Shown piece by piece: positions 23,861 through 30,045 of a DNA stretch of 64,000 nt (position 1 is its first letter; the number at the start of each line of letters is the position of its first letter). Below the pieces are notes generated by a model that had not been told where the DNA came from, made no database searches, and saw nothing but the letters and a program-made list of their open reading frames with translations. The stretch is from assembly GCA_019694165.1 (NCBI GenBank), contig JAIBCL010000007.1, positions 124,001 to 188,000 on the forward strand, given 5' to 3'. Made by a program: the position numbers and the translations under genes. This stretch comes from Verrucomicrobiaceae bacterium. GTDB taxonomy: Bacteria; Verrucomicrobiota; Verrucomicrobiia; Verrucomicrobiales; Verrucomicrobiaceae.

Positions 23861-24595
23861 TTACTTCACCGGTGCCGCGTTCCATATCGTGAGATCGTCG
23901 AAGAAGCCGTCCTTCCCCATGCAGCCGAATTCGACCTTGGACTTGGTGAGGTGGGCGATGCCGGGGGATTGGAGGTAGGCGACGGGCTGGCCGTCGATGG
24001 TGGCGCGCATGGTGTCGCCCACGGTTTCGAGCATGAAGGTGTGCCAGATCTGGGGATCGAGGCTGAGCGGGAAGGACACATTCTTGCGGCCTTTGGGCGT
24101 GGGCGGTTCGCCGGTGGCGCCTTCGGGGCGGGCGACGGCGAGGCCTTTCTGGTCCACGAGGATGATCTTGTCTGCCGCGATGCGCGCCATGCAGAGGTGT
24201 CCGTAGTGCGAGCCGTTGAACTTCCGGTCGTCAAACTCCGCCGTGACGGACTGCGCGCCGCCGAGCTTGAAGCGGAACTCGATCACGCTGTCCTTCGTCG
24301 GGATGTCGTTGCCGATGACGGCCTGATGCCCTTTCACCGCGGGCTTGCCATCCTTCGCCGGGGTGTCGAAGCGCATCTGCATGCCCTTCAGCGTGCCGTT
24401 CTCGAGGGCATACGTCGGCACCACGATGGCCCAGCCCTTGTCCTTGCCCAACTCCGCGCGCTCGAAGTCATCGGAGAAGAGCAGTTCCTTCTTTTTCGCG
24501 ATCGGCTCCGTGGGAATGGAGGGCAGCTTCGGCGCATCGGCGGCAAAGGTGGTGGCGGTGACAAGGCAGGCGAGCGTGAGGAAGCGGAGATTCAT
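23861..24595 (-). CDS. Secreted protein with LamG/DUF1080-like fold (tentative)
   Basis: A 244-residue exported protein with signal peptide MNLRFLTLACLVTATTFA-A and a single beta-rich domain. DDFERAELGKDKGWAIVVP opens the domain and KVEFGCMGKDGFFDDLTIW closes it. That is the pattern of concanavalin/LamG-type jelly rolls (DUF1080-like), common in secreted proteins of Verrucomicrobiota and Planctomycetota. No catalytic residues can be assigned. The first 340 bases, from the start codon, are duplicated as a broken copy at 25841-26180 on the other side of a yhcG gene. Confidence 0.7.
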   Translation of the reverse strand: MNLRFLTLACLVTATTFAADAPKLPSIPTEPIAKKKELLFSDDFERAELGKDKGWAIVVPTYALENGTLKGMQMRFDTPAKDGKPAVKGHQAVIGNDIPTKDSVIEFRFKLGGAQSVTAEFDDRKFNGSHYGHLCMARIAADKIILVDQKGLAVARPEGATGEPPTPKGRKNVSFPLSLDPQIWHTFMLETVGDTMRATIDGQPVAYLQSPGIAHLTKSKVEFGCMGKDGFFDDLTIWNAAPVK

Positions 24596-24600
24596 GGGGC
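24260..24600. repeat. Direct repeat, intact copy (5' part of secreted-protein gene)
   Basis: 341 bases matching 25841-26180 in the same orientation with about 17 differences by eye (about 95% identity), including one single-base indel. Homology begins just outside the start codon (TTCATGGGGC on the plus strand) and stops at codon about 113. Confidence 0.9.
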
Positions 24601-24634: not shown

Positions 24635-25735
24635 TCATTGAGTTTTCCTGGCCGTTCGCTTCTCTGCTTTGACATCGCTCAGAGCGAGTCGTTGTCGTGC
24701 GCGAACTACCGCTTGGTGGAGCTTTTGTTCGAGCTGCTTCTTGGGCAGCAGTTTCGTCCAGTAAGCCGCCACATGGATGCCGCTGCTGGCGAGTTCGAGC
24801 AGTTCGACATGCTCATCGTTCTTGCCCGCGCAGAGGATCATGCCCAGCGGCGCTCCTTCGGCGGGTTCGACGGCGTGGCGTTTGAGCCAGCCGAGATACA
24901 GCTCCATCTGCCCTTTGTCCGCTGCCTCGAAGTCGCCGAGCTTCAGATCAATCGCGACGAGCCGCTTGAGCTTCCGATGGTAGAACAGAAGATCGAGGTA
25001 GTAGTCCTTCGAATCAATCTGCATCCGCTTCTGTCGCTCCAGGAAGGCGAAGCCAATGCCGAGTTCGAGGATGAAGCTCTCCACCTCGCGCAAGATCGCC
25101 GACTCCACGTCCTTCTCGGCATAGGTGTCCTTCAGCCCGAGGAAATCGAGGATGTAGGGATCGCGAAAGACGAGGTCAGGCGTCAGCTTGTCCTCGCTGC
25201 GCAGGGCGGCGAGTTCCTGCTTGATGAGCTTGTCGGGCTTCTTGGAGAGCGCCGTGCGCTCATAGAGCATGCTCTTGATCTTCTGCTCCAGAGTCCGCGT
25301 GCTCCAGTTCTCGATGCGACACATCTCGGCGTAGAAGTCGCGTTGGAGCGGGTCGTCGAGGCGGACGATATGAAGGAAATGTGTCCAGCCCAATTTTGAC
25401 ATCAGTGATGTCAAAATCTGTCGGTCCGGGAATGCCTCGGCAAAGCGGATCATGCGGGCAAGGTTTCGCTCGCCAAACCCACGACCAAACTCGGCCTCCA
25501 ATTTTGCACTCAGTGCGGACAAAATCTGCTCGCCATACTCGGCCCGCTTCTCTTGGAGAATGTCCCGCCGAATGCGAGTGCCAATCTCCCAATAGAGGAG
25601 CGTCAGACCCGCGTTGACGGTCCGGGCGACGGCTTCGCGAGCCGTGAGGATGAGTTCGCGGACATCCGCAAGCAGCGGCACGGCAAGGGCGGCGGGCTTG
25701 GGAGCTAGCGTGCGAGGCTTGGGCTTTGCGGGCAT
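24635..25735 (-). CDS. yhcG: YhcG/DUF1016-family PD-(D/E)xK nuclease, copy 1
   Basis: A 366-residue protein of the YhcG (DUF1016) family. The N-terminal helical domain (about residues 20-150) shows LTLLYWEIGTRI, YGEQILSALSAKL, EFGRGFGERNLARMIRFAEAF and LGWTHFLHIV. The C-terminal PD-(D/E)xK nuclease-like domain (about 205-330) shows ILRELESF-like helix, then DYYLDLLFYHRKLKRLVAIDLKLG and KGQMELYLGWL. Conserved Asp in YLDLLF and the D-x-K in IDLKLG take the usual catalytic positions. The family is associated with mobile and defence loci, but its substrate is not established. The gene sits between two copies of a 341-bp direct repeat, with one perfect palindrome inside it (25394-25418) and another 45 bases upstream. 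Confidence 0.88.
   Translation of the reverse strand: MPAKPKPRTLAPKPAALAVPLLADVRELILTAREAVARTVNAGLTLLYWEIGTRIRRDILQEKRAEYGEQILSALSAKLEAEFGRGFGERNLARMIRFAEAFPDRQILTSLMSKLGWTHFLHIVRLDDPLQRDFYAEMCRIENWSTRTLEQKIKSMLYERTALSKKPDKLIKQELAALRSEDKLTPDLVFRDPYILDFLGLKDTYAEKDVESAILREVESFILELGIGFAFLERQKRMQIDSKDYYLDLLFYHRKLKRLVAIDLKLGDFEAADKGQMELYLGWLKRHAVEPAEGAPLGMILCAGKNDEHVELLELASSGIHVAAYWTKLLPKKQLEQKLHQAVVRARQRLALSDVKAEKRTARKTQ
25394..25418. repeat. Perfect 25-nt palindrome inside yhcG copy 1
   Basis: Arms ATTTTGACATCA and TGATGTCAAAAT around a single central G. It falls in the codons for QILTSLMSKLG, just before the conserved GWTH motif, the same site in the protein as the hairpin array of the second yhcG gene. 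Confidence 0.85.
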
Positions 25736-25779
25736 GGCTCGGTCAGAGTAGCGCGGTCAGGCGGCTTAGGGAAAGGTGA

Positions 25780-25804
25780 ATTGTCTCCGCAGTGCGGAGA
25801 CAAT
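25780..25804. repeat. Perfect 25-nt palindrome upstream of yhcG copy 1
   Basis: Arms ATTGTCTCCGCA and TGCGGAGACAAT around a central G, 44 bases upstream of the yhcG start and 36 bases from the direct-repeat boundary. Same geometry (12-bp arms, one-base centre) as the palindromes inside the yhcG genes. It could be an operator or a mobile-unit end. Confidence 0.85.
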
Positions 25805-25840
25805 CCGCAGCAGAATAGACGGCGGCTATGCCAGTGCGTC

Positions 25841-26180
25841 GCCGAGCTTGAAGCGGAACTCGATCACGCTGTCCTTCGTCGGGATGTCGTTGCCGATGAC
25901 CGCCTGATGCCCTTTTACCGGGGGCTTGCCATCCTTCGCCGGGGTGTCGAAGCGCATCTGCATGCCCTTCAGCGTGCCGTTCTCGAGCGCATACGTCGGC
26001 ACCACGATGGCCCAGCCCTTGTCCTTGCCCAGCTCGGCGCGCTCGAAGTCATCGGCGAAGAGCAGTTCCTTCTTCTTCGCGATCGGCTCCGTGGGAATCG
26101 AGGGCAACTTCGGCGCATCGGCGGCGAAGGCGGTGGCAGTGACCAGGCAGGCGAGCGTGAGAAGCGGACGTTCATGGGGC
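25841..26180 (-). pseudogene. Truncated, frameshifted copy of the 23861-24595 secreted-protein gene
   Basis: On the minus strand the start codon (26175) is kept, but one base is lost in codon 6 (CGCTTCCTCACG in the intact gene, CGCTTCTCACG here). This destroys the signal peptide frame. The correct frame then resumes as LPSIPTEPIAKKKELLF and ends at FKLGDALA, about codon 113, where the homology stops. It keeps about 95% identity to the intact copy, so the duplication is not ancient. Confidence 0.9.
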
Positions 26181-26299
26181 TTCGGGAACGGACACGGTTG
26201 TCTCAGTCATGCAGAAAAGGTAGGCCACATCAATCAGTAGATAGAAGGGAAGAGTTTAACGCTTGAGAGCCTCGAAACTGCTGGGGGGATGACGATTGT

Positions 26300-26315
26300 C
26301 ATGTTTTGCAACATG
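26300..26315. promoter_or_regulatory. Small dyad upstream of TIR-KAP gene
   Basis: CATGTT-ttgc-AACATG dyad, 110 bases before the TIR-KAP start, in an otherwise featureless 245-base spacer (26181-26425). A possible operator; no promoter boxes are convincing. Confidence 0.25.
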
Positions 26316-26425
26316 CCCCTTTTCCAACCTCGATTCTCTGGGAATAACCGAACGAGGTGCGTTCACAACGCGTTGATGGAGCCTAGCCCGGCTGATGTGA
26401 TCTGCCCGAGCGCTAAGAGTCCTTG

Positions 26426-28774
26426 ATGGCAGGCCAAATGCATTCCAAAGATTCATTAATCATGTCCATCCTGAATACTGACACGCCAGAAATTGGTCCG
26501 AGACTCAAGCCGCATGGAAGAGCCAAAGTCTATGTGAGCTATGCTCACCGTGATGCAAAGCATCTGAAGAAGCTGGAGGTAGAACTGACCGTGCTTTTGC
26601 ATCAGGGGTTGATTGAGGCGGTTTGGCATGATCAACACCTGGACCCAGGAGACAAGTGGCACGATCAAATCAACGCTAAACTCGAGGACGCGGATGTGAT
26701 CATTCTGCTTATCAGCGCTGCGTCCCTTGCTTCTAACTACATCACGCAAAAGGAGATACCGCACGCACTTCAAAAGTATGAGCGTCAGAGTGCCATTTTG
26801 ATACCGATCATTCTGGAGCGGTGTTCATGGTCAAGAACGGAACTTGGTAAGTTCTTTGTGCTGCCGACTGGAGGCAAACCTGTTGTGGAGTGGAAGCCTC
26901 AATCAAAAGCCTGGCATAACGTGGGGGGTGAACTGAGACGGGTCTTCGAACTCTTCAATCAAAGGGTGGTCACCGTCGGCGAAGCCGAATTGGATAACGA
27001 GCAGCCGCCCGTGACAGTTGAACCTTCTAGCGAAGACTCTTCAGCCACAAACAGTGAAGTTCGAGTTGGGCCAAGAGGGTCAAATCTGACCGACGGTCGA
27101 GCCATGCAGGATCAAGCTAGCGCAACGGACTCTATGGGGCGCTCTGAAATGATTGTTGCGCTCGCAGATTTCATTTCGTCGAAAGATTCCGTTCCCCCGC
27201 TCTCAGTGACTATCGAAGCCCCGTGGGGCGAGGGTAAGAGCAGTGCCATGGTGCAGCTCAGGCGATACTTGGCTGTTCATAAGCTGAGCCAAACGATTTG
27301 GTTCAACCCATGGCGATACACTGAACCAGAAGCGCTATGGAGCGGATTTTTGGCCGAATTCACTGAACAAATTCAAAAGGGGAAATCTCTCTTCGCCAAG
27401 TTTTTGATACAGCACCGCTACCTGCAGGCGACTTATGGCAGGTGGGTGTTGTTGAGGTGTTTCGGGGCCATTATGGCTGTCCCTATTTTGTTCTATTTGG
27501 TGCGGTGGTGGCTCCTTTCACAATTGCCAAGCCTCGCTGATGGCTGGAGTTCGTGGCTGGGCCAGATTGCTGCTATTGTGGCAGCTTGGGGTTCCTCAGT
27601 TTTCGTCGCCGCAAAGCTTTGGTTCGCATTTCACAAGCCAGTCCGAACGCTTGGCGCTGAACTTAAGGCATACTTCAGTCAACCTGACTACGCCGCCAAA
27701 CGAGGCAGCAGTGAACGTCTCCATCGTGAATTTCGCGCATGGCTCGTCGCTTGTAATAGGCCAGGGGAGCGCATCTTTGTGTTTATCGACGACCTAGATC
27801 GCTGCGCTGGTTCGCGCGCTGCGGAGCTGCTGGATTGGCTGCAACTTATGATGTCCAATATTGGCGATGGGAGCAATGACCCTTTCCCGCTAGTTGTGGT
27901 TGCTGGTTTAGATCGCGAGAAAGTGGCAGCGGCCGTTGCGATGCGCCAAAGTGAAATGATGCCGATCCTTGCTCCAGGCGATACAGCACGCGAGAAAGCC
28001 GAAGCAGCCATTATTTGGGGTTACGGATACTTGGAAAAATTTGTAGATTTGCCTGTTAGATTACCGCCTGGATCAGCGCATGTGTTGGAATCATTTTTGG
28101 CCGATCTCGCGCCAGAGGCAGTCGAATCTGAAAAGCGGTTAATGGAGGTGCAGCGCAAGAATGCAGAGGCCGCTCGCACTCTTCGCCTCGGCAACCTAGC
28201 AAAGACGTTTGACAAAACAATCCCAACACCAGCAAGTGATAACGAGAAACCCGAGGCTGGGGACGGAGTCGAAGCCCCCCTACTGTCTCATGAAGGTGAG
28301 GATTGGAGGGTTCCTGGTCTACTCAGGTCCGCCGCCGTTTGGCTGAATCATAGTCCACGGCGTATCAAACACTTTTTGAACCTTCTAAGATTACGTTGGG
28401 CTGTGCGGAGACGACTTGGAGAAGATCGAATGACACTGGAACTAACGGCGAGGCTTGTTCTGGTTGAAACTGCCCGTCCTACACTTTTTCGAGCTATTGC
28501 TGATCACTCATCAGTTAGAGCGGCCCTTTTTGAGCAGCAAAGTGAAGAGAGCCCCGGAATTTTCCGTCGTGATGGCCGTTGGATGGAAGTATTGGGATCT
28601 CAAGTGTTTGATGCTGACAAGGATTGGTTGAGCAAACATGGCGAAGCTGTCCTGGTTGATGATTGGGATGATATACTGCACGATCACCCTGAAAGCAGTC
28701 CCTCTGAGCGGGATGAGTTTGCTCTTACACGCGACGCACTTGATGCATTGATCGACGGGACACTATACCGCTAG
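26426..28774 (+). CDS. TIR-KAP P-loop NTPase (candidate defence protein)
   Basis: About 782 residues. Residues about 33-165 form a TIR domain: AKVYVSYAHRDAKHLKKLEV, WHDQHLDPGDKWHDQI, VIILLISAASLASNYITQKE. The Glu in the last segment sits at the usual NADase catalytic position. Residues about 240-680 form a KAP-family NTPase: Walker A APWGEGKSSAMV, TIWFNPWRY, two inserted membrane helices (about 348-400), Walker B FVFIDDLDRC, and RRIKHFLNLLRLRW. TIR domains commonly act as NAD+ hydrolases after infection sensing, and KAP NTPases are recurrent in phage defence. The codon and base composition is more AT-rich than the neighbours, suggesting transfer. Start codon uncertain (ATG 26426, 26438 or 26462, all before the TIR fold). 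It is convergent with yhcG copy 2 (5-base gap). Confidence 0.88.
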   Translation: MAGQMHSKDSLIMSILNTDTPEIGPRLKPHGRAKVYVSYAHRDAKHLKKLEVELTVLLHQGLIEAVWHDQHLDPGDKWHDQINAKLEDADVIILLISAASLASNYITQKEIPHALQKYERQSAILIPIILERCSWSRTELGKFFVLPTGGKPVVEWKPQSKAWHNVGGELRRVFELFNQRVVTVGEAELDNEQPPVTVEPSSEDSSATNSEVRVGPRGSNLTDGRAMQDQASATDSMGRSEMIVALADFISSKDSVPPLSVTIEAPWGEGKSSAMVQLRRYLAVHKLSQTIWFNPWRYTEPEALWSGFLAEFTEQIQKGKSLFAKFLIQHRYLQATYGRWVLLRCFGAIMAVPILFYLVRWWLLSQLPSLADGWSSWLGQIAAIVAAWGSSVFVAAKLWFAFHKPVRTLGAELKAYFSQPDYAAKRGSSERLHREFRAWLVACNRPGERIFVFIDDLDRCAGSRAAELLDWLQLMMSNIGDGSNDPFPLVVVAGLDREKVAAAVAMRQSEMMPILAPGDTAREKAEAAIIWGYGYLEKFVDLPVRLPPGSAHVLESFLADLAPEAVESEKRLMEVQRKNAEAARTLRLGNLAKTFDKTIPTPASDNEKPEAGDGVEAPLLSHEGEDWRVPGLLRSAAVWLNHSPRRIKHFLNLLRLRWAVRRRLGEDRMTLELTARLVLVETARPTLFRAIADHSSVRAALFEQQSEESPGIFRRDGRWMEVLGSQVFDADKDWLSKHGEAVLVDDWDDILHDHPESSPSERDEFALTRDALDALIDGTLYR

Positions 28775-28779
28775 ACGGC

Positions 28780-30045
28780 TCAGCGGGAAGCAGCGGCGCT
28801 CCACTCATCAAGCTTCTGCTTCAGCAGTTCTTTGGAGGGCAGGTAGAGCGAATACTCCTTCGCGTGGATGTTGGCGTCTTTCGGCAGGGTGAGTTCGACG
28901 ACGGTCTTTTTGGCGGATTTACAGAGGAGGAGGCCGATGGTGGGGTTTTCGTCGGGGAGCTTCACCTCGCGGTCGTAGTAGTTCACATACATCTGCATCT
29001 GGCCGAGGTCCTGATGCGTGAGCTTGTCGAGCTTGAGATCAATGATGACGTAGCAGCGGAGGAGGCGGTTGTAGAAGACGAGGTCCACGAAGTAGTGGTC
29101 CTCATCGAAGGTGAAGCGCTTCTGCCGGGCCTCGAAGAGGAAGCCTTTGCCAAGCTCCAGGAGGAAGTGCTCGAGGCGTCCGATGATGGCGTGCTCGAGG
29201 TCGGTCTCGGTGTAGCTGGTCTTTTCATCGAGGCCGAGGAACTCGAGCACGAGCGGCTCCTTCAAGAGGTCCTCGGGCCGGGTGATGAGCTGGCCTTCCT
29301 TCGCAAGCCGCCGGATGCCTTCCTTGTCCCGGCTGAGGGCGAGGCGCTCGTAGAGGCAGGAGGCTTTCTGGCGCTTGAGTTCGGGCACGGACCAACCGGC
29401 GTTGGTGGCCTCGATCTCGTAGAAGCTGCGTTCGTCGGGGTCTTTGATGGTGAGGAGCAGGACGTAGTGGGACCAGCTCATTGTGAAGGGGTTTCCCAAT
29501 TTCCGAGAAGCTGTCTCGGAAATCGCCAATTGGTCAGTCGCTGTCTGACCAATTTGGAGCGGCACCAATTTCCCAATAGGTTGTTGGGGAATCTCGATGG
29601 CTTCAGATTTGCCAACAGGCTGCTGGCGAATTTGAATCGGATCCAATTGCCCAGAAGCCTTCTGGGCAATTCGCCCTTCCAAAGATTGCCCAGAAGGCTT
29701 CTGGGCAATTGGGGGAACTCGGTCCTGCCACTCCAGATAGAAGCGCCGCATGTATTCGAGGTTGGCCTTCGAGAACCCTCTCCCGAACTCCTCCGTGAGC
29801 CGCGCTGAAAGCTCCTTCAGCAACTCCGCGCCATACGCCGCGCGCTTGGCTCCCTTTTGCTCGTGCTCGACAATGCGGCGGCCGATTTCGAAGTTGGTCA
29901 TCACCTGGAAGGTGTCCACGACGGTGGAAACGCCGCGTCGGGCGCTCTGGATGAGCTGGCGGACTTCGGTGAGGAGGGAGGTGAGGCCGTCCGGCTTCGT
30001 TTTGGCCGGGGTGATCGCTTTTTTGGAGACGGACGGCTTTTTCAT
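28780..30045 (-). CDS. yhcG: YhcG/DUF1016-family PD-(D/E)xK nuclease, copy 2, with in-frame hairpin array
   Basis: A 421-residue YhcG paralogue, only distantly similar to copy 1. The N-terminal helical domain has FEIGRRIVEHEQKG, YGAELLKELSARL, EFGRGFSKANLEYMRRFYL and MSWSHYVLLLTIKD. The C-terminal nuclease domain has EHFLLELGKGFLFEARQKRF, HYFVDLVFYNRLLRCYVIID, LKLDKL and QMQMYVNYYD. Between RRFYLEW and MSWSHY lies an extra segment of about 75 residues made of six variant units of the form I-x-Q-x-x-S-x-(K/Q)-L (IAQKPSGQ, IAQKASGQ, IRQQPVGK, IPQQPIGK, IGQTATDQ, ISETASRK), each encoded by a DNA palindrome. It is 3 bases from the thiC stop side. Confidence 0.88.
   Translation of the reverse strand: MKKPSVSKKAITPAKTKPDGLTSLLTEVRQLIQSARRGVSTVVDTFQVMTNFEIGRRIVEHEQKGAKRAAYGAELLKELSARLTEEFGRGFSKANLEYMRRFYLEWQDRVPPIAQKPSGQSLEGRIAQKASGQLDPIQIRQQPVGKSEAIEIPQQPIGKLVPLQIGQTATDQLAISETASRKLGNPFTMSWSHYVLLLTIKDPDERSFYEIEATNAGWSVPELKRQKASCLYERLALSRDKEGIRRLAKEGQLITRPEDLLKEPLVLEFLGLDEKTSYTETDLEHAIIGRLEHFLLELGKGFLFEARQKRFTFDEDHYFVDLVFYNRLLRCYVIIDLKLDKLTHQDLGQMQMYVNYYDREVKLPDENPTIGLLLCKSAKKTVVELTLPKDANIHAKEYSLYLPSKELLKQKLDEWSAAASR
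29500..29709. repeat. Regular array of six in-frame palindromes in yhcG copy 2
   Basis: Arms and centres on the plus strand: TTTCCGAGA/TCTCGGAAA (centre 29511); AATTGGTCAG/CTGACCAATT (29541); ATTTCCCAA/TTGGGGAAT (29580, one T-G); ATTTGCCA/TGGCGAAT (29619, one T-G); AATTGCCCAGAAG/CTTCTGGGCAATT (29658); ATTGCCCAGAAG/CTTCTGGGCAAT (29697). Centre spacings are 30, 39, 39, 39, 39 bases, that is 10 or 13 codons, so every hairpin is in the same phase of the frame. Arm sequences differ between units while the pairing is kept. Confidence 0.92.

Follow-up and report, generated by a model that had tools for sequence, protein, structure and literature searches.

In-frame palindromes of about 25 bp in genes of the YhcG nuclease family are maintained at the DNA level

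Palindromes that are translated as part of a protein are a known kind of sequence, and three described systems come closest to the one considered here. Rickettsia palindromic elements (RPE) lie in frame inside protein-coding genes, PARCEL is made up of coding repeats in tandem that have dyad symmetry and vary in sequence, and in the mitochondria of Nematomorpha coding palindromes keep a protein and a strict inverted repeat together, in each case according to the accessible portions of the respective papers (PMC4316617; PMC2996958; PMC6649704). The palindromes described below, found in genes for YhcG, resemble the first in lying in frame within coding genes, the second in forming coding arrays with dyad symmetry and variable sequence, and the third in that protein and inverted repeat are kept jointly. 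As far as the same portions of these papers go, there are also differences. RPE are about 100-150 nt long and occur across genes as well as between them (PMC4316617), whereas the yhcG palindromes measure about 25 nt and are, among the matches listed, essentially confined to yhcG loci; neither the dispersal over one genome nor the length that characterizes RPE was seen. PARCEL is a 75-nt repeat of DUF285/TIGR02167, often in membrane proteins, while we deal with a 25-nt palindrome of one nuclease family, and neither YhcG protein studied here contains a DUF285/TIGR02167 repeat. The nematomorph palindromes reach 284 bp, are spread over several mitochondrial genes of four species and have no link to a nuclease in the accessible text (PMC6649704). 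REP and REPIN sequences, finally, are extragenic and present in high copy number, in contrast to the in-gene palindromes confined to yhcG. What sets the latter apart is that they keep to a fixed place in a single nuclease family, show no dispersal and also occur as copies at cassette edges. The accessible parts of the literature on YhcG/DUF1016 do not mention DNA palindromes, and no description of palindromes in yhcG was found among the open-licence papers searched, so that one may be in print elsewhere.

YhcG is widespread, being encoded in thousands of genomes, and is listed by PADLOC as a candidate phage-defence protein without known function. The window, i.e., the whole 64-kb stretch of DNA that was analysed, contains two yhcG genes, termed copy 1 and copy 2 (Table 1), which are the only genes with a YhcG_C domain in the genome. 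By sequence both are ordinary members of the YhcG/DUF1016 family (PDC-S02), with PF17761 in the N-terminal and PF06250 in the C-terminal part above the cut-off; for copy 1 the E values are 1.7e-47 and 8.8e-45, respectively, and PADLOC assigns it to PDC-S02.

Table 1. Coordinates of the yhcG genes, their palindromes and the neighbouring gene copies in the window.
Feature	Position	Strand	Paired positions	Remarks
yhcG copy 1	24635-25735	-		366-aa ORF; DUF1016_N and YhcG_C (putative PD-(D/E)XK nuclease)
Site B	25393-25417		12/12	Perfect 25-nt palindrome in copy 1; codes ILTSLMSK(L) directly before GWTH
Site A	25501-25525		9/12	Imperfect palindrome in copy 1; codes ILSALSAK(L)
Upstream palindrome	25780-25804		12/12	Perfect; 44 nt 5' of the copy 1 ATG; left edge of the homologous cassette
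yhcG copy 2	28780-30045	-		421-aa ORF; YhcG by Pfam and PADLOC
Array unit 1	29685-29709		12/12	IAQKPSGQ
Array unit 2	29646-29670		12/12	IAQKASGQ; exact reverse complement of unit 1
Array unit 3	29607-29631		10/12	IRQQPVGK
Array unit 4	29568-29592		9/12	IPQQPIGK
Array unit 5	29529-29553		10/12	IGQTATDQ
Array unit 6	29499-29523		10/12	ISETASRK
Full copy of 244-aa gene	23861-24595	-		Without Pfam or NCBIfam assignment at E 0.001
Partial copy of 244-aa gene	25836-26180	-		346 aligned columns, 95% identical to 24255-24600

Two perfect palindromes, each with 12-bp arms and a single-nucleotide centre, mark copy 1: site B (ATTTTGACATCAGTGATGTCAAAAT) and the upstream palindrome (ATTGTCTCCGCAGTGCGGAGACAAT). 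An initial annotation of this DNA had already pointed to the pair, placing one just before the codons for GWTH and the other 44 nt upstream of the gene. Both are real and both positions are borne out, except that the former begins at 25393 and its start had been given one nucleotide off. The accompanying judgement that such sites are very unlikely to arise by chance agrees with Markov-1 shuffles of the window, which yielded 0.03 palindromes with arms of at least 11 and none with arms of 12 in 30 runs, as against four with arms of at least 11 in the window itself; none of the four lies away from yhcG, copy 1 and copy 2 accounting for two each. The pair is not the complete set; site A and an in-frame array of six palindromic units in copy 2 (29499-29709) had been overlooked. 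A search of the genome for more such palindromes, proposed at that time, brought up four matches to the pattern ATT-N7-CANTG-N7-AAT in 7.8 Mb, three of them at copy 1, while the pattern typical of copy 2, ATT-N3-CAR-N7-YTG-N3-AAT, has five matches, all within copy 2.

Pattern scans were extended to 57 relatives (75 distinct sites among the matches listed) and nine distant genomes (47 sites). Among the matches listed, the palindromes are essentially confined to yhcG loci: 18 of the 20 sites with at least 11 pairs are no farther than 1.5 kb from a YhcG_C match, one resides in a truncated yhcG (L210), and one at a contig end (G022:C82) reads ISQQTAGKS and resembles the array units. Dispersal through the genome was found neither in the organism itself nor, among the matches listed, in the relatives and distant genomes. 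These observations bear on the idea that we are looking at a dispersed palindromic mobile element of the RPE, REP or PARCEL kind that merely happens to favour yhcG. Such an element could well appear as arrays, inverted copies, in-frame coding units and flanking copies, but its failure to spread to other genes (among the matches listed), its length of 25 nt and the constant length of the site A segment among the relatives of copy 1, which is thus not an added insert, render this origin quite improbable.

The occurrence of palindromes throughout the family was surveyed for 195 loci with a YhcG-like ORF, made up of 80 from a species-genome scan, those of the genome under study and its relatives, and E. 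coli K-12. Loci were located by BLAST, as a gene finder that depends on an SW[ST]H-like motif overlooks half of them (56 of 112), and gene starts are estimates. Removal of 15 ORFs under 280 aa left 180, and removal of 36 copies at least 90% identical left 144 representatives. In 90 of these, a total of 146 25-mers with 11 or 12 of 12 positions paired was detected, 137 of them in frame 0, while the number in 50 synonymous-codon shuffles that keep the protein averaged 0.86 and never exceeded 3; for perfect palindromes the corresponding figures are 57 observed and 0.02 in the synonymous shuffles. At least ten pairs in frame 0 are present in 122 of the 144 genes, and several of the other 22 have a palindrome in a different register or with a different loop. 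If loops of 0-7 nt are permitted, 108 of the 144 genes reach 11 of 12 pairs, compared to 13 of 432 shuffled genes, and this is a safer figure than one based on at least ten pairs, a level frequently attained by chance under these conditions (137 of 432 shuffled genes). Six of the 144 genes stay below ten pairs even then, so that some members of the family can do without the feature, a point against the functional reading favoured below. Sites are either single or arranged in arrays with a period of about 39 nt. Nine plasmid- or phage-borne yhcG genes from Actinobacteria, Cyanobacteria, Deinococcus, Proteobacteria and Wolbachia phage WO, chosen for taxon variety among 54 listed matches before the sequences were inspected, all have a stem of at least ten pairs at coding nt 249-350. 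Seven of the nine have 11 or 12; the genes from Legionella and Rhodococcus, with ten pairs each, show no excess over their own shuffles.

Within the copy-1 clade, sites A and B were placed by protein alignment alone and were not chosen for symmetry. Site B has an orthologous site across the clade with 9-12 pairs, and site A retains 8-12 of 12 pairs in 12 orthologues, the exceptions being one truncated gene (6 pairs) and one misaligned row. The letters themselves drift. Genes that differ by 6-13% of nucleotides in their other codons mostly differ by 15-42% in sites A and B, apart from three of the closest pairs, which have identical sites, and two pairs involving the broken row L120, which differ more; for two E. 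coli alleles the differences amount to 5 of 50 positions inside the palindromes and 34 of 1063 outside. Among the 19 distinct A and B sites, 88.6% of the cells are paired, and both sides of a pair have changed 30 times, affecting six of the 12 pairs, as compared to 13.0 times in shuffled data (a value reached in 0 of 500 shuffles). Covariation is 0.334 versus 0.116 after shuffling and at most 0.139 when partners are slid. A further count of paired versus single changes over close pairs (1418 vs. 683) is biased, as both sites had to have at least ten pairs and the pairs are non-independent, and is not relied on. The palindromes are maintained at the DNA level, with a symmetry far above what the peptide requires, and the combination of changing letters and kept symmetry points to a DNA-level role that has so far gone unrecognised.

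Chance together with coding constraint was considered as a source of the palindromes and is ruled out by the Markov-1 shuffles, the synonymous shuffles and the covariation.

Any palindrome of this sort can fold in RNA as well, and hairpins controlling translation or decay of the yhcG mRNA have to be weighed for that reason. G.U pairs, though, are not tolerated: where a second codon position pairs with a third, transition mismatches that give G.U in the mRNA (36 of 649) are no more abundant than those that do not (62 of 1015), which makes selection on folding of the sense mRNA unlikely. Since the centre base is also constrained although unpaired, and an extragenic copy in E. coli K-12 lies on the gltD side, about 7 kb away from yhcG, mRNA hairpins are a highly improbable explanation. 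At first-codon-position pairs of the frame-0 palindromes family-wide the asymmetry is the opposite one: A.C mismatches number 40 and G.T mismatches nine.

At the protein level, the structural models (based on alignments of 37 sequences for copy 1 and 59 for copy 2) place sites A and B in or beside predicted helices 65-83 and 105-111 of copy 1. For copy 2, residues 119-152 and 157-182, which comprise most of the array, have pLDDT values below 50 and hardly any secondary structure except for a short helical turn at the end; they are located between two confident helices. One and the same DNA feature would thus be read as a helix or as a disordered stretch, depending on the clade. The predicted disorder of the copy 2 array stretch and the existence of an E. 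coli O157 allele that has lost 78 nt of its array in frame, keeping one site, both argue that the palindromes are not there for the protein. While a sequence search of YhcG against solved structures gave no useful match, fold comparison (Foldseek/VIA, residues 195-329 of the predicted model) identified EndoMS/NucS as nearest to the C-terminal domain (2vld: Z 12.0, rmsd 2.3 over 108 residues; 5gke: Z 12.0, rmsd 2.9 over 113 residues). The model accordingly displays a PD-(D/E)XK fold, in keeping with the available part of the study by Kosinski et al. (2005; PMC1189080), in which YhcG was predicted to be a PD-(D/E)XK nuclease related to Holliday-junction resolvases. Compared to EndoMS/NucS, the predicted nuclease YhcG has an extra helical DUF1016_N domain.

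With confidence that falls a little short of even, we favour the reading that the yhcG palindromes act as DNA, probably as hairpins or cruciforms, that cassettes recombine at them and that the putative nuclease YhcG acts on them. YhcG genes keep inverted repeats of about 25 bp at a fixed N-terminal coding place, sometimes also at cassette edges, and the in-gene copies are written in frame such that the protein is not broken. The palindromes may extrude as hairpins or cruciforms, and once folded could be where cleavage, inversion and recombination take place; by this route yhcG cassettes might insert, get lost, or gain and lose array units. The acting enzyme would be YhcG itself, by virtue of a nuclease domain resembling the structure-reading endonuclease EndoMS/NucS. 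The suggestion of the initial annotation that the palindromes are recognition sites for the encoded protein is plausible, and they may be regarded as candidate sites. Simple sequence-specific recognition is a poor fit, as units within one gene differ (left-arm identity of array units is 0.74 within and 0.51 between genes), and this counts against the favoured reading, as does the fact that we know of no binding or cleavage by YhcG. A wider version is possible but doubtful: YhcG and its palindromes could constitute an unrecognised self-targeting system of many bacterial phyla, some archaea and phages, in which the gene for a structure-reading nuclease carries its own substrate in frame, cassettes insert, excise and diversify at the palindromes, E. 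coli K-12 included, and the in-gene copies represent an autogenous switch or a mobility site instead of protein-coding information. A DNA feature kept in yhcG genes across phyla, among them that of E. coli K-12, provides a concrete substrate for tests; it is a rare case of coding sequence constrained as DNA, and could account for the movement and diversification of yhcG cassettes.

The main rival to a functional role is mutational drive without function. Template switching between the arms during replication would repeatedly perfect quasi-palindromes that originate in the peptide motif I-x-Q-(4 residues)-K/Q-L, the codons of which are partly self-complementary at the outer pairs. According to the accessible portions of two papers, template switching homogenises the arms of inverted repeats and inverts spacers in coding DNA (PMC8604942), and can create and maintain stems (PMC8794818). 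Matching traces are present in yhcG, and they equally fit the inversion assumed in the favoured reading. The centre base is C in 135 cases, G in 77, A in five and T in four; leucine codons at the centre are CTG 47 times and TTG twice, with 12.9 TTG expected from the same genes. Wherever sites have equal arms and unequal centres the difference is C versus G (seven of seven). Inverted copies are apparent in L179, where a pair of units has two differences when one is inverted and five in direct comparison, and in L008 (three and six, respectively). Among all pairs with up to three differences 14 are closer in direct and 16 in inverted orientation, and among within-gene pairs with up to six differences 59 are closer direct and 35 inverted, the centre base alone deciding the call for most pairs; the latter numbers indicate that tandem duplication occurs too. 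The G to C flips and inverted copies, the outer pairs almost fixed by the peptide, and the faster divergence of the sites than of the remaining gene all speak for template switching. Set against this, outside the yhcG loci the same genomes have essentially none of these palindromes (among the matches listed), so that a general mutational bias fails to explain a family-specific feature in many phyla, and the extragenic copies beside E. coli yhcG lack the peptide motif. Overall, drive without function appears unlikely, but it is the strongest of the rivals, and template switching may keep the arms equal even if the sites are functional.

Palindromes outside the gene are rare except in E. coli and the copy-1 clade, which counts against recombination of cassettes at palindromes as the favoured reading. 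Only three with at least 11 of 12 pairs were found when the 400 nt preceding each of 143 representative genes were scanned, and six lie downstream of 144 genes, not all of them of the ATT...AAT type. The refuting observation named in the initial annotation, a lack of palindromes at orthologous positions, does not apply to the in-gene site, which is family-wide, but largely applies to the upstream site, which mostly has no counterpart. The upstream numbers weigh on the autoregulatory operator that had been suggested and, more widely, on the possibility that YhcG, or else a regulator of the host, attaches to the palindromes in duplex form and controls transcription of yhcG. A palindrome 44 nt before copy 1, its core kept upstream of relatives, and two further upstream palindromes in L054 are what an operator would predict; yet upstream palindromes occur in just those three instances whereas within the gene they are the norm, the leader is conserved in the clade over its entire length and not at the palindrome alone, half-sites differ inside a gene, and no sigma-70-like promoter was found near the upstream palindrome. 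As a general role, control of transcription is not supported and is improbable. An intrinsic terminator, i.e., a G+C-rich stem followed by a T run, was not found in 25300-26300 either. The extragenic ATT...AAT palindromes of L054 are located 106 and 160 nt upstream of yhcG, and L096 has several of this type 37, 214 and 325 nt after the gene. The yhcG flanks of L009 and L012 contain perfect palindromes of a different type (AACTGTCAAGGA.., AGTTGTCCGGAA..), which may belong to a separate repeat family.

Escherichia coli offers the clearest view of palindromes at the borders of a yhcG segment. By blastn, 4,417 of 5,426 E. coli genomes match yhcG, 3,310 of them across 80% or more of its length. The K-12 gene has three in-frame sites with 11, 10 and 11 pairs, spaced by 39 nt. 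In one allele type nt 250-400 depart from K-12 by 41% and the rest by about 3%, and this type carries palindromes of its own; the difference starts before the first palindrome, indicating that the whole segment was exchanged. An extragenic palindrome 15 nt 3' of the yhcG stop is present at all 13 loci with an intact 3' end (15 examined), three of which show a compensated change of a G-C to a C-G pair, and in K-12 a further one follows 15 nt after gltD. The 8.3 kb between these two flanking palindromes comprise gltF, yhcA, yhcD, yhcE (interrupted by IS5), yhcF and yhcG. Over 22 kb of K-12 the two flanking palindromes and the three inside yhcG are the only ones, with 0.05 expected at 11 or more pairs. 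In the yhcG-less strains ST131 and MS21324, the gap between gltD and nanQ is 67 nt long and contains one perfect (12/12) palindrome; its left flank equals that of K-12 (one base differs in MS21324), its right flank resembles the right flank of K-12, and 944 of the 5,426 genomes cover at least 80% of this empty-site query (the two strains named were inspected). Strains without the genes gltF to yhcF lack the left palindrome in the intact loci inspected. These arrangements can have arisen in two ways, by entry of the segment at a palindrome, which became duplicated, or by deletion between two palindromes, of which one stayed behind. Against the favoured reading, the lone palindrome might be the product of a deletion or act as a shared terminator. 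The broken alleles L194, L195, L201 and L235 have their junction within or at the third of the internal palindromes (coding nt 382-406), and among 60 sampled rows this applies to 12 of 15 partial alleles, ten of which end at nt 406 and two of which start at nt 385 beside IS1; these junctions probably go back to few independent events.

At copy 1, the homologous alignment of the cassette begins at the upstream palindrome, beyond which the flanks of the relatives differ. The gene is enclosed by a long direct repeat formed by the partial and the full copy of the 244-aa gene, and five relatives exhibit a like arrangement around yhcG, their partial copies being truncated at different positions. Insertion with long target duplication is known for restriction-modification genes. 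Flanked by one partial and one full copy of a single gene, copy 1 is reminiscent of such an event; with copies that are 95% identical, duplication upon insertion and import from a relative are indistinguishable. Beside the orthologues of the 244-aa gene at yhcG-less loci, no solo palindrome was found in four relatives, which counts against recombination of cassettes at palindromes and means that copy 1 does not reproduce the E. coli picture on both of its sides. In comparison with homing-type elements, the E. coli empty site has one palindrome and the K-12 insert two, which is compatible with either direction of the event, and copy 1 has none at the four yhcG-less loci. The third suggestion of the initial annotation, that the palindromes are ends of a mobile unit, has gained support: the upstream palindrome is the left edge of the cassette and the K-12 insert is flanked at both ends, although the four relatives have no solo palindrome at their yhcG-less loci.

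The region between the two yhcG copies (26423-28774) is occupied by a 783-aa gene with TIR and KAP NTPase domains and ThsB- and QatA-like PADLOC matches, and together with the two yhcG genes it looks like a defence island. In L222 and L231 yhcG adjoins what we take, from an HsdS-like reading and from an hsdM annotated on the Deinococcus plasmid, to be type I restriction-modification genes.
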